Below the pieces are notes generated by a model. That model ran no database searches and had not been told where the DNA came from. It saw only the letters and a program-made list of their open reading frames with translations. A stretch of DNA of 64,000 nucleotides from Halorubrum xinjiangense (GTDB taxonomy: Archaea > Halobacteriota > Halobacteria > Halobacteriales > Haloferacaceae). Each line of letters starts with the position of its first letter. Position 1 is the first letter of the stretch. Below are positions 17,802-24,290 of this stretch, in pieces. The stretch spans positions 1 through 64,000 of the forward strand of contig NZ_FNBO01000011.1 in the NCBI RefSeq assembly GCF_900102375.1, in the 5' to 3' direction. A program made the position numbers and the translations under genes.

Positions 17802-19397
17802 TCAGGGCTGCGCCGGAACCTCCAGTCGGACCGTCGTCCCGTCCTCGTCGGTGTCGATGTCGAACTCGCCGCCGGCCTTGGCGACGACCCAGTACATGAG
17901 CCAGATGCCGAGCCGGTCGGCGTGGGTCAGCGACGTCTCGCCCGCCTCCAACACCTGCGTCTCGTGGTCCGGGATTCCGGGGCCGTCGTCCGCGACCTCG
18001 ATCGCGATCCATCCGGGGGGGCACCGCTCGACGCGCACGTCGACGGACGGTGACGGACTGTCGTTGTGCTTCACGGCGTTCTCGACCGCCTCCGCGACGG
18101 CGACCGGGAGGCCGACGACCATCACCTCGATCGAGTCGTCTTCCGGCAGCGACAGGGTCACCTCGGCGTCCGGGTAGCGGCTGTGGATCCGGTTCCGGAG
18201 TTCGATCAGCTCGTCGCGGAGGTCGATCGGGGCGTCGAGCGGGGCCCCTGAGACCGTGTCGTCGACGGTCTGGACGGCGGTCGCGATCCCCGTGAGGTCC
18301 GCGGCCGTCTCGGTGATAACGTCGAGCGCCTGGCGCTGCGACTCCGCTTCGGGGTCGTTTCGGAGCAGGTCCGCGTACCCCGAGATGAGGTTCATCTTGT
18401 TGCGGAGGTTGTGGTTGAGCACCCGGGCCATCACCTCCAGTCGCCGCTCGCGGATCTTCCGCTCGGTGATCTCCGTCTGGAACCCGACGAAGTGCGTGGT
18501 CGCTCCCGCTTCGTTCCGCAGGGGTTCGATCTGGAGCCGGTTCCAGAACTTCTGGCCGTTCGCCCGGTAGTTGAGGATGTCCACGTCGACCGGCCGCTCC
18601 TCGTCGAGGCCCCGCCCGATCTCGGCACGCGTCTCGTCGGCCGTGTCGGGCCCTTGGAGGAACCGACAGTCCTCGCCGAGCATCTCCTCGCCGTAGCCGG
18701 TCAGCGACTTGAACTCCTCGTTGATGTATACGAGCGGCCGGTCGTCCCCGCCCGACGCCCGCGCGAGGGTGATCCCGACGGGGGCCTCGTCCATCGCCCG
18801 CTCTTTGAGCCGTAAGTCGGCGACGGTCCGCCTGAGGCGGAGCGAGGTCAGCCGCCGCTTGACCAGGTTCGACACCCGCGTGAGCAGCGCCCGCCGGGCG
18901 ACCGGCAGTTCGATGACGTCGTCGACGCGCTCCCACGCGCCGTCGGCCGGCCCTCCTCGCGCGCTCTCGCTCACCAGCAGCACGAACGGCAGGAACGCGG
19001 GGTCGGCGCGCTCGCGCCGCGCGTCCAGCGCGTCGCCGGCGGCGGCGAAGGCGTTCGCGTCGAGGACGCAGCAGTCGAACTCGGCGTCGAGCGCGGCGGG
19101 GTCGGTCTCGGCCCGGATCCGGTAGCGCTCGCCAAGCGCCTCGGCGAGCAGGTCGCGGTCGCGGTCGTCGTCCATCAAGAGGAGGACCGTCCCGTCCGCG
19201 GTCAGGTTCGCGGCGTCGTCGCGTTCGAACACGAGGGACGGCTCGCTGTCGCGGTCGTCGCCATTGCGGTCGGCTTCGCCGAAGTCGTCACCGCCGTGCT
19301 CCGCCGAATCGCGCCGCTTTCGGCCGGATCCCGTCTCGCCCTCTGCGGACCCGTCGCCGTCGGCGGCATGGTGTGCCCGGTCCGGCTCTGAGTCCAT
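17802..19397 (-). CDS. LOV-domain sensor histidine kinase with receiver-like N-terminus
   Basis: A 531-residue cytoplasmic kinase: acidic N-terminus (1-65), receiver-like domain (70-165), PAS/LOV domain (205-315), HisKA helices with phospho-His329 (LNHNLRNKMN) and HATPase_c (about 420-530, with EVADDGPGIP). The PAS domain carries the LOV flavin signature: GEDCRFLQG with Cys244 at the photoreactive position, Asn276 in NYRANGQKFWN with Asn286, and Gln307 in FVGFQTEIT. These are the residues that bind FMN and form the light adduct in known LOV proteins. One change: Asp243 replaces the usual Asn. It is divergent from a KaiC gene across 73 bases. Confidence 0.88.
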   Translation of the reverse strand: MDSEPDRAHHAADGDGSAEGETGSGRKRRDSAEHGGDDFGEADRNGDDRDSEPSLVFERDDAANLTADGTVLLLMDDDRDRDLLAEALGERYRIRAETDPAALDAEFDCCVLDANAFAAAGDALDARRERADPAFLPFVLLVSESARGGPADGAWERVDDVIELPVARRALLTRVSNLVKRRLTSLRLRRTVADLRLKERAMDEAPVGITLARASGGDDRPLVYINEEFKSLTGYGEEMLGEDCRFLQGPDTADETRAEIGRGLDEERPVDVDILNYRANGQKFWNRLQIEPLRNEAGATTHFVGFQTEITERKIRERRLEVMARVLNHNLRNKMNLISGYADLLRNDPEAESQRQALDVITETAADLTGIATAVQTVDDTVSGAPLDAPIDLRDELIELRNRIHSRYPDAEVTLSLPEDDSIEVMVVGLPVAVAEAVENAVKHNDSPSPSVDVRVERCPPGWIAIEVADDGPGIPDHETQVLEAGETSLTHADRLGIWLMYWVVAKAGGEFDIDTDEDGTTVRLEVPAQP

Positions 19398-19470
19398 TGC
19401 TTATACACAGACGGGCGGAACCCACTAAGAACTACCCCATTTATATCACGGCTCCGTCCGATGGGGCCGT
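19398..19470. promoter_or_regulatory. Shared divergent promoter of LOV kinase and KaiC genes
   Basis: Only 73 bases separate the two starts. On the + strand CATTTATATCAC (about 19,438-19,449) lies 25-30 bases before the KaiC ATG, a good leaderless TATA. On the minus strand GTATAAGCAATGG-like sequence lies close to the kinase start. Such tight sharing suggests coordinated control. Confidence 0.5.
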
Positions 19471-20940
19471 ATGTCATCACCGCTATCCGAGCGAGCGTCG
19501 ACAGGCATCCCCGGCCTCGACGAGGTGTTGTCCGGGGGGTTCGTCCCCACGCGGAGCTACATGGTCCGCGGGCAGGCGGGGAGCGGGAAGACGATCCTAA
19601 GCTTCCACTTCCTCCAGCAGGGGGTCGACGAGGGAGAGACGGCGCTTTTCATCAACCTCGAAGAGGACCTCCGCGACCTGAAGGCGAACGCGGCCGCGCT
19701 CGGCTTCGACACCGACGCGATCGAGTTCCTCGACCTCAGTCCGAGCGCGGACGCCTTCGTCGAGGACGAGTCCTACGAGGTGTTCGCTCCCTCGGAGGTT
19801 GAGCGGGAGCCGCTCACCGAGCGGATCGTCGAGGGCGTGACCGCGGTCGACCCCGACCGCGTCGTCGTCGACCCGCTGACCCAGCTCCGCTTCCTGCTCT
19901 CGGACGACTACCAGTTCCGGAAGCAGGTGGTCGGCTTCATGCGCTTCCTGAAGGACCGCGGGGCGACGGTGCTTTTCACCGTCCAGAACACCGAGTCGCT
20001 GCCAACCGACGACTTGGAGTTCATCACGGACGGGACGATCCGGCTGGACGTCGGAGAGTTCGGCAAGTCCGTCCGCGTGCCGAAGTTCCGCGGGTCGGTG
20101 ACGCAGGGCGGCGACCACGCCTACCGAGTCACCGACTCGGGGATCGAGGTGTACCCCGCGCTCCAGCCGGGTTCGTCCGCGGTCGACGCCGAGTTCGAGC
20201 AGCTCTCCTCCGGGATCCCCGAGGTGGATACGCTTCTCGGCGGCGGGATCGAACGCGGCACCGTCACCATCGTGAGCGGGCCGACCGGCGTGGGGAAGAC
20301 GACCCTCAGCACCCAGTTCATGAAGGCGGCGGCCGACCGCGGCGAGCGCTCGGTCATCTACCTGTTCGAGGAGAACCGAGGGACGTTCCTCGCCCGGTCC
20401 CGGGCGATCAACATCCCGGTCGACGAGATGATCGAGCGGGGGACGCTCCGGGTGAACGAGGTGGAGGCGTTAGAGCGCTCCCCGCAGGAGTTCGCGCGGA
20501 TGGTCCGCGAGGAGGTCGAGGGACGGGACGCCGACATCGTCATGATCGACGGGATCTCCGGGTACCGGCTGACGCTGCGCGGCGAGGACGAGCAGATGCT
20601 CCAGCAGATGCACGCCCTCGGACGCTACCTCAAGAACCAGGGCGTGACGTCGATCCTCGTCGACGAGACGCGGAACGTCACCGGGGAGTTTCAGGCGACG
20701 ATGGAGAACGTCAGCTACCTCGCGGACAACATCGTCTTCCTCCGGCACCTCGAGATCGGAGGCGAGCTCCGCAAGGCGATCGGCGTGTTGAAAAAGCGGA
20801 CGAGCGACTTCGAGCGGACGATCCGCGAGTTCGAGATGACCGACCGCGGGATCGCCGTCGGCGAGCCGATGTCCGACCTCAGGGGTATCCTGACCGGCGC
20901 GCCGGAGTCCGTCGACCGGGACTCGCAGCGAGACGAGTAG
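19471..20940 (+). CDS. Double-domain KaiC-family ATPase
   Basis: A 489-residue RecA-like ATPase with two KaiC domains. Walker A motifs are at residues 34-41 (GQAGSGKT) and 270-277 (GPTGVGKT). Paired catalytic glutamates follow each (Glu64-Glu65 and Glu300-Glu301), so both domains look competent for ATP hydrolysis. Walker B-like segments are VVVDPLTQL and DIVMIDGISG. The phosphorylated Ser/Thr pair of cyanobacterial KaiC cannot be assigned by eye. Haloarchaea use KaiC-like proteins in signalling, and this one is divergently paired with a LOV histidine kinase. Confidence 0.9.
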   Translation: MSSPLSERASTGIPGLDEVLSGGFVPTRSYMVRGQAGSGKTILSFHFLQQGVDEGETALFINLEEDLRDLKANAAALGFDTDAIEFLDLSPSADAFVEDESYEVFAPSEVEREPLTERIVEGVTAVDPDRVVVDPLTQLRFLLSDDYQFRKQVVGFMRFLKDRGATVLFTVQNTESLPTDDLEFITDGTIRLDVGEFGKSVRVPKFRGSVTQGGDHAYRVTDSGIEVYPALQPGSSAVDAEFEQLSSGIPEVDTLLGGGIERGTVTIVSGPTGVGKTTLSTQFMKAAADRGERSVIYLFEENRGTFLARSRAINIPVDEMIERGTLRVNEVEALERSPQEFARMVREEVEGRDADIVMIDGISGYRLTLRGEDEQMLQQMHALGRYLKNQGVTSILVDETRNVTGEFQATMENVSYLADNIVFLRHLEIGGELRKAIGVLKKRTSDFERTIREFEMTDRGIAVGEPMSDLRGILTGAPESVDRDSQRDE

Positions 20941-23732: not shown

Positions 23733-24290
23733 CTACTGCTCGGGCCGCCACCGGCCGCCGATCTCTTCGCGGGGGTAGTCCTGAAACGTGCCGTCGAGAT
23801 ACGTGGTGACGCGGCCGTCCTCCTCGCTGAGCGTGACCGCCCACAGGACGTTCTTCCGGAGCGACGTCTCTAGGGCGCTCATGTGTTTGGTCCCCATCCA
23901 GTCGGGGTACTCGAGCTCCGCGACCCCCGGCACCTCCGCGTGGTGGGGGCTTCGGACTCGGACCATCTGTCGCTGGATCGTCCCGTCGCCCGTCACGACG
24001 ATCGCGCCGTCTCGGCTGAACCCCACGTCCTCGGCGACCCGCCGAAACGCCTCGGGCGAGTCGAGCACGATCTTACACCTGTCGGTCGGCCAGACGTTCT
24101 CTCCCAGCGGGTCGGTGTACGCCTCGAAGTCGGTCTCGGCGACGACGAGGAAGTACAGGCTCGGACCGCTCACGTACTGGTCGTCCCACTTCCCGAACTC
24201 CATGCTCAGCGTCTCGGCCACGTATCGGATCCGGTCCATGAGATCCTGGCTGGTGGCGTACTTTTTCAACACCCGATCGAGTTCTTCCAT
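23733..24290 (-). CDS. dacZ: Diadenylate cyclase DacZ (DisA_N/DAC domain)
   Basis: A 185-residue protein with the DAC fold that makes cyclic di-AMP from two ATP. Motif 1 is FSRDGAIVVTGDG (Asp-Gly-Ala, near residue 91). The second catalytic motif, RHRAA in bacterial enzymes, reads GTKHMSALETS here (near 133). Haloarchaeal DacZ is essential in Haloferax and linked to osmotic balance. The full gene is a single domain, unlike bacterial DisA or CdaA. The KHM variant is probably a family trait rather than loss. Confidence 0.78.
   Translation of the reverse strand: MEELDRVLKKYATSQDLMDRIRYVAETLSMEFGKWDDQYVSGPSLYFLVVAETDFEAYTDPLGENVWPTDRCKIVLDSPEAFRRVAEDVGFSRDGAIVVTGDGTIQRQMVRVRSPHHAEVPGVAELEYPDWMGTKHMSALETSLRKNVLWAVTLSEEDGRVTTYLDGTFQDYPREEIGGRWRPEQ

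Follow-up and report, generated by a model that had tools for sequence, protein, structure and literature searches.

A pseudo-receiver domain accompanies two-domain KaiC in a conserved, divergent LOV histidine kinase-KaiC gene pair of Halorubrum

Results

The kinase-KaiC locus is conserved in Halorubrum

The 64,000-nucleotide stretch of DNA analysed here, which we refer to as the window, comprises positions 1 to 64,000 of contig NZ_FNBO01000011.1 of the haloarchaeon Halorubrum xinjiangense (assembly GCF_900102375.1) and contains a gene for a histidine kinase with a LOV domain that is divergent from a gene for a two-domain KaiC ATPase. A first-pass annotation of this DNA had described the two genes as a divergent pair with a shared promoter region of 73 bp; both open reading frames are exactly as described, and positions 19398-19470 separate the two start codons. 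The features of the locus are the following.

17802..19397, minus strand: LOV histidine kinase gene (531 residues; disordered acidic N-terminus, pseudo-receiver, LOV, HisKA and HATPase_c)
18807..19196, minus strand: pseudo-receiver (PsR) domain of the kinase (residues ~68-197; from AlphaFold2 (AF2), Foldseek, VIA-align and residue conservation)
18459..18803, minus strand: LOV domain of the kinase (residues ~199-313; Cys244 codon at 18666-18668; Asn276, Trp285, Asn286, Gln307)
17805..18458, minus strand: HisKA (His329) and HATPase_c (Asn440, Asp470, Gly472, Gly474) of the kinase (from Pfam and alignment)
19398..19470, no strand: divergent promoter region, 73 bp separating the kinase and KaiC start codons
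19423-19429: CACTAAG element on the kinase side, 25 nt from the kinase ATG
19440-19446: TTTATAT box on the KaiC side, 24 nt from the KaiC ATG
19471..20940, plus strand: two-domain KaiC ATPase/kinase gene (489 residues; each domain has its Walker A and B motifs and a Glu pair; clock phosphosite residues Thr410, Ser415 and Tyr416)

Orthologues of the kinase and of KaiC are present in 45/52 and 42/52 Halorubrum genomes, respectively (counts for the genus were compiled manually from listings), and in all 42 genomes that have both genes the two are adjacent and divergent, as judged by comparing coordinates by hand. Because the divergent arrangement is kept in 42/42 genomes, the pairing is more than chance. 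According to the first-pass annotation, a lack of conserved pairing in other haloarchaea would refute its interpretation; the pairing is conserved, and beyond the genus the divergent pair is found in, e.g., Haloplanus ruber and several metagenome-assembled genomes. In a KaiC tree that included only some of the divergent-clade loci (20 out of those named L150-L229; L and G numbers denote loci and genomes), all divergent pairs form a single clade of 20 rows with a support of 100 in the SH-like approximate likelihood ratio test. Three Halorubrum genomes have the kinase without KaiC: G039, G044 (at a contig end) and G045, in which the kinase lacks the PsR domain and no KaiC lies ahead of the gene (locus L189, assigned to G045 by its position on the contig). 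Seven Halorubrum genomes have neither gene; five of these carry another two-domain KaiC (45-56% identity) that adjoins a PsR gene, and the other two (G033 and G037) gave no PsR match and no two-domain KaiC relative.

In most Halorubrum relatives the CACTAAG element is retained ~25 nt away from the start of the kinase gene, as is a TTTATA-like box ~24 nt away from that of KaiC, an organization that would fit two leaderless transcripts arising from abutting core promoters.

The kinase has an N-terminal pseudo-receiver domain

Residues ~68-197 of the kinase form a domain that was overlooked in the first-pass annotation and that has no match to a Pfam family. When 44 of these domains were compared with Pfam, they gave scattered weak matches (best E value 0.0012), and one member matched KaiA_N at 0.043, which we do not count as evidence. 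The AF2 model of the domain has a five-stranded alternating fold (predicted local distance difference test score (pLDDT) 91.1), and the matches listed by Foldseek and VIA-align are receivers throughout. The best VIA-align match is PleD (Z 15.9, root-mean-square deviation 2.2, 131 aligned residues), and in Foldseek the PsR domain of CikA (5jyu) matches with template modelling (TM) scores of 0.63/0.72. The receiver lysine is present in 0/42 PsR rows and Asp113 in 38/42, and there is no conserved acidic pair. A pseudo-receiver is defined, in the accessible part of PMC12632262, by the absence of at least one of five receiver residues; a receiver fold that has neither the lysine nor a conserved acidic pair is therefore a pseudo-receiver, and on account of the same two features we reject a canonical two-component receiver in the N-terminal part of the kinase. 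The long C-terminal helix of the domain runs into the linker to the LOV domain.

The pseudo-receiver domain tracks two-domain KaiC

Within the genus, 67 matches to a PsR profile score at least 79 bits, with the next match at 54 bits; 61 of the 67 lie in a cluster with KaiC, one lies ~1.1 kb from KaiC, and five are without KaiC (two of them at contig ends). The genome of H. xinjiangense itself has 25 kinase matches and one PsR domain. A sample of 69 genomes of the order gave 44 PsR matches, 38 of them at or above 75 bits (this line and the 79-bit line were drawn after the gaps were visible). KaiC accompanies 36 of these 38, in G111 as a fragment only; one of the remaining two has only a weak KaiC-like open reading frame and the other has none. 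Among the six matches below 75 bits one has KaiC, and the five that score 62-66 bits have none, so that the link is a property of the high-scoring PsR subfamily. At the level of whole genomes in this sample, 29 have both PsR and KaiC, 4 have PsR only, 1 has KaiC only and 35 have neither. Outside the order, KaiC lies beside or near the PsR gene in 3/6 fetched loci of family 21 (53-90 bits) and is absent from the other three, and it is found in 0/4 fetched loci of family 19 (~50 bits).

In the reverse direction, 55/56 two-domain KaiC genes of the genus adjoin a PsR gene, and 63/87 KaiC genes have a PsR neighbour in 80 regions, which were hand-chosen from the upper part of a listing and supplemented with seven genus paralogues, a choice that biases the counts. 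The 63 PsR neighbours differ in arrangement, 6 being divergent from KaiC, 55 downstream and 2 upstream. Ten of them are not kinases but PsR-GAF-BAT proteins of the Bat type (L107, L110-L112, L114, L116, L118, L121, L122 and L125), with HTH_10 seen in nine and the protein of L111 cut by a contig end. In three-gene clusters, KaiC is accompanied by two successive PsR kinases (L146, L148, L149, L099 and L100). One clade of two-domain KaiC has no PsR neighbours (L081, L087, L089, L090, L092, L093, L096 and L098) and often has two copies separated by a few kb; at L081, L092 and L098, the three loci that were tested, a PF04199 cyclase-like gene lies divergent beside its KaiC. Stand-alone receiver-like genes (PF00072, ~30 bits) immediately follow KaiC at L105:3056-3472 and L119:5031-5492, where there is no PsR kinase.

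In named loci centred on the histidine kinase, KaiC is present in 47/51 loci with a PsR domain vs 0/29 without one, and outside the divergent clade in 10/12 vs 0/28; divergent-clade rows are mostly close kin, so that test P values overstate the independence of these counts. The LOV domain was considered as the link to KaiC and rejected: LOV kinases without a PsR domain have no KaiC nearby, and most KaiC-linked PsR genes lack a LOV motif, which is found in 12/63 PsR neighbours of KaiC. Thus, it is the PsR domain and not the LOV domain that ties the kinase to KaiC. The light-signal module proposed in the first-pass annotation holds well as a genomic unit, with a conserved pair, a single clade and intact LOV and KaiC motifs, except that the LOV domain is not its connecting element. 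Finally, in 68 loci that included part of the divergent clade (six of L150-L189), divergence of the PsR domain correlates with divergence of KaiC at r 0.56, compared with r 0.23 when the kinase core of the same proteins is taken; the bootstrapped difference has a 95% range of 0.15 to 0.46.

Combining the pairing, the domain content and the statistical link between PsR and KaiC, we suggest that the two genes probably form a signalling unit in which KaiC has a dedicated partner kinase with a KaiC-coupled PsR domain and in which the LOV domain adds a blue-light input.

Several observations weigh against this interpretation. PsR domains without KaiC occur in Salinibaculum sp. KK48, Haloarcula pellucida and Halorubrum aidingense contig 17, and 24/87 KaiC genes, mostly of one clade, have no PsR gene above 75 bits within 700 bp, although two of these (L104 and L144) have a neighbour under that line. 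KaiC is broken in several species, being split in G043 and G023 and present as fragments in G004. In G039, the neighbouring Trm56 gene reaches up to the promoter element of the kinase, which is retained (L270:3470-4160); KaiC was therefore lost cleanly, and the kinase can exist alone. The same genome holds a second PsR kinase without KaiC. In addition, the PsR profile was trained on KaiC neighbours, the AF2 model of the full-length kinase is poor over the LOV part (mean pLDDT 70.1, predicted TM score 0.43) and, because the PsR domain is encoded at the KaiC-proximal end of its gene, this position could in itself explain why it follows KaiC.

The last point leads to an alternative in which the PsR domain acts intramolecularly to keep the kinase inactive and follows KaiC merely because of where it lies in the gene. 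An intramolecular role of this type is described for ShkA and CikA in the accessible part of PMC12632262, the position effect is present in both the divergent and the downstream arrangements, and nearness to KaiC could contribute to the correlation in divergence. Given that fusions of the PsR domain to a DNA-binding protein, with no kinase involved, also exist and that the PsR domain and two-domain KaiC show matching presence across genomes, we regard this alternative as unlikely.

Alternatively, the kinase and KaiC genes may be neighbours only, sharing a promoter region and co-regulation, with no interaction between their proteins. Shared regulation can be enough to hold divergent genes together when their promoter elements abut, and the persistence of the kinase without KaiC in G039 agrees with this. 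However, the link between PsR and KaiC outlasts the changes in gene order among the 63 neighbours as well as the swap of the kinase for a Bat-type output, and it also holds as presence and absence across genomes; hence, this explanation, too, has little probability in our view.

The LOV domain and the catalytic core of the kinase

Pfam places PAS_9 at residues 218-312 of the kinase and finds HATPase_c clearly, with HisKA slightly under its cut-off (25.1 vs 26.9 bits). At E ≤ 0.001 the kinase has 151 matches in the PDB (best 8e-27; region 208-320); among the best 60 are phototropins and blue-light photoreceptors as well as histidine kinases activated by blue light, and several further matches are presumably also LOV proteins. 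NCBIfam LOV families match the kinase with E values of 1e-34 to 1e-29, yet under their whole-protein cut-offs. Across 37 aligned kinases His329, Asn440, Asp470, Gly472 and Gly474 are invariant. No relatives of the kinase were found in the viral contigs searched.

The motif of the photoactive cysteine reads GEDCRFLQ in the window kinase (vs GxNCRFLQ). Of the 37 kinases in the alignment, 35 retain Cys244 and 36 retain Asn286, whereas Asn276, Trp285 and Gln307 do not vary; residue 243, before the cysteine, is Asp in 32, as in the window, and Asn in five. The first-pass annotation credited the kinase with all residues of a flavin-binding LOV domain: Cys244 is present, as are Arg245, Gln248, Asn276, Asn286 and Gln307 of the residues that we take to contact the flavin. 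Gly261 makes this statement slightly too strong, since the other 36/37 kinases have Arg at this position, presumably the flavin-phosphate contact that corresponds to R467 of AsLOV2. The local sequence is Ile-Gly-Arg-Gly in the window vs Ile-Arg-Ala-Gly in its kin, which could be a genuine difference or an artefact of the assembly.

Gly261 would also be compatible with a LOV domain that serves as a redox or flavin sensor and not as a blue-light sensor, as would the two KaiC-paired kinases of metagenome-assembled genomes (L181 and L182) in which His replaces Cys244 and the remaining flavin residues are intact. Moreover, flavin binding and photoreduction are described for a cysteine-free LOV domain from a Halorubrum Bat (PMC4682037). 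The retention of the cysteine in 35/37 kinases and the characterization of ALovD-1, an archaeal LOV domain from a Halonotius kinase, as a photoreceptor (PMC12202551, accessible part) argue against such a sensor, which we consider rather improbable; the retained cysteine also speaks for the proposed signalling unit.

KaiC is intact, and searches for KaiB and KaiA gave no match

Pfam finds two KaiC domains in the window protein, and the Walker motifs are intact in an alignment of 107 relatives. The catalytic Glu pairs that the first-pass annotation had recognized in both domains are intact in the window and strongly kept among the relatives, with Glu in 99/105 and 105/105 for the CI pair and in 106/107 and 107/107 for the CII pair. 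At the clock phosphosite, Ser415 is present in 107/107, Tyr416 takes the place of Thr in 103/107, and position 410 is Thr in 99 and Ser in 8; by alignment these residues map to the positions that we take to be S431, T432 and T426, respectively. Tyr at the second phosphosite also occurs in some KaiC3 proteins (PMC5520375). KaiB was found in 0/52 Halorubrum genomes in a search whose positive control was detected in 6/14 genomes and above the cut-off in one of them, and KaiA was found in 0/1 genomes, i.e. that of H. xinjiangense, in a search that detected its positive control solely in Synechococcus elongatus.

The "clock-type" label given to this ATPase in the first-pass annotation consequently lacks support, and a clock is no more than possible. 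A timer that is truly based on KaiC and set by blue light would draw on the full two-domain KaiC with its conserved Thr/Ser/Tyr site and on the light-dark dependent rhythmic expression of four cir genes of Haloferax volcanii, in which cirC adjoins fixL (PMC3941300, accessible part). Against this stand the lack of KaiB in the 52 genomes and of KaiA in the genome of H. xinjiangense, the position of cirC-type Haloferax KaiC in another clade and the fact that nothing in our analysis measures time. We consider a timer very unlikely.

Elsewhere in the window, positions 23733-24290 on the minus strand encode a protein that matches the DisA/DAC domain of cyclic-di-AMP synthases below the threshold (22.3 vs 27 bits).

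Discussion

We infer the following scheme for the proposed signalling unit of KaiC and its partner kinase. KaiC would act as an ATPase in CI and is predicted to be an autokinase in CII with Ser415/Tyr416 as targets. The PsR domain would dock on the KaiC ring and read its nucleotide or phosphorylation state, and blue light would induce formation of an adduct between the flavin and Cys244 in the LOV domain. The KaiC and light signals may converge in the helix ahead of HisKA and in that way set autophosphorylation of His329, from which the phosphate would be transferred to a response regulator whose gene lies elsewhere. The PsR domain of other haloarchaea is attached to different sensors or directly to a DNA-binding output of the Bat type.

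A more general scheme, which we regard as possible although doubtful, is that of a haloarchaeal KaiC device that does without KaiA and KaiB: the PsR family would replace the interface provided by KaiB, SasA and CikA, and KaiC state would be passed on to a kinase or a Bat-type protein with exchangeable sensors. The LOV domain of the Halorubrum kinase would merge blue light into this device, possibly as a dusk/dawn timer. The PsR kinase is a candidate, amenable to testing, for the partner that archaeal KaiC has so far lacked: one named domain follows two-domain KaiC through haloarchaea and ends in a kinase or a DNA-binding protein, which makes the question of the partner experimentally approachable.

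KaiC-like ATPases have reportedly been proposed by Makarova, Galperin and Koonin in 2017 to be signalling hubs in archaea with linked sensors. Similarly to cyanobacterial KaiC, the window protein has two RecA-like domains. The system differs from that of cyanobacterial KaiC, CikA, KaiA and SasA in that no KaiA or KaiB was found, in the Tyr at the second phosphosite, in the N-terminal location of the PsR domain and in the LOV domain of the kinase. SasA has a KaiB-like domain, and CikA has a GAF domain and a C-terminal PsR domain; the window kinase is of neither type, given that Pfam finds neither KaiB nor GAF in it and that its PsR domain is N-terminal. PsR domains are carried by both CikA and KaiA (PMC12632262, accessible part).

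The cirC/fixL locus of Haloferax volcanii likewise combines a two-domain KaiC with an adjacent sensor kinase (PMC3941300, accessible part). Published cirC primers match within the KaiC reading frame of H. denitrificans and H. massiliensis with 0-1 mismatches, and in both species the gene after that KaiC has a PsR domain and a LOV motif. The Haloferax KaiC-kinase loci, which did not include H. volcanii itself, differ from the window pair in being colinear, in having several PAS domains and in belonging to another KaiC clade. The window pair as an orthologue of cirC/fixL was rejected on the grounds that the Haloferax KaiC rows fall in this other clade.

The location of Haloferax cirC beside fixL and archaeal LOV kinases were already known, and the link between PsR and KaiC was not found in print: in the titles and abstract openings of the open-licence literature, neither the kinase-KaiC pair nor a PsR link to archaeal KaiC was found described. 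ALovD-1 of Halonotius is likewise a LOV domain in a haloarchaeal PAS kinase, and KaiC is not mentioned in the main text of the paper describing it (PMC12202551). Bat, the bacterio-opsin activator, combines a divergent receiver and sensor domains with BAT and HTH_10 (PMC5847659, PMC4682037, accessible parts). The window kinase, unlike Bat, is without a DNA-binding domain, and the same Bat output follows the PsR domain in ten of the KaiC neighbours.

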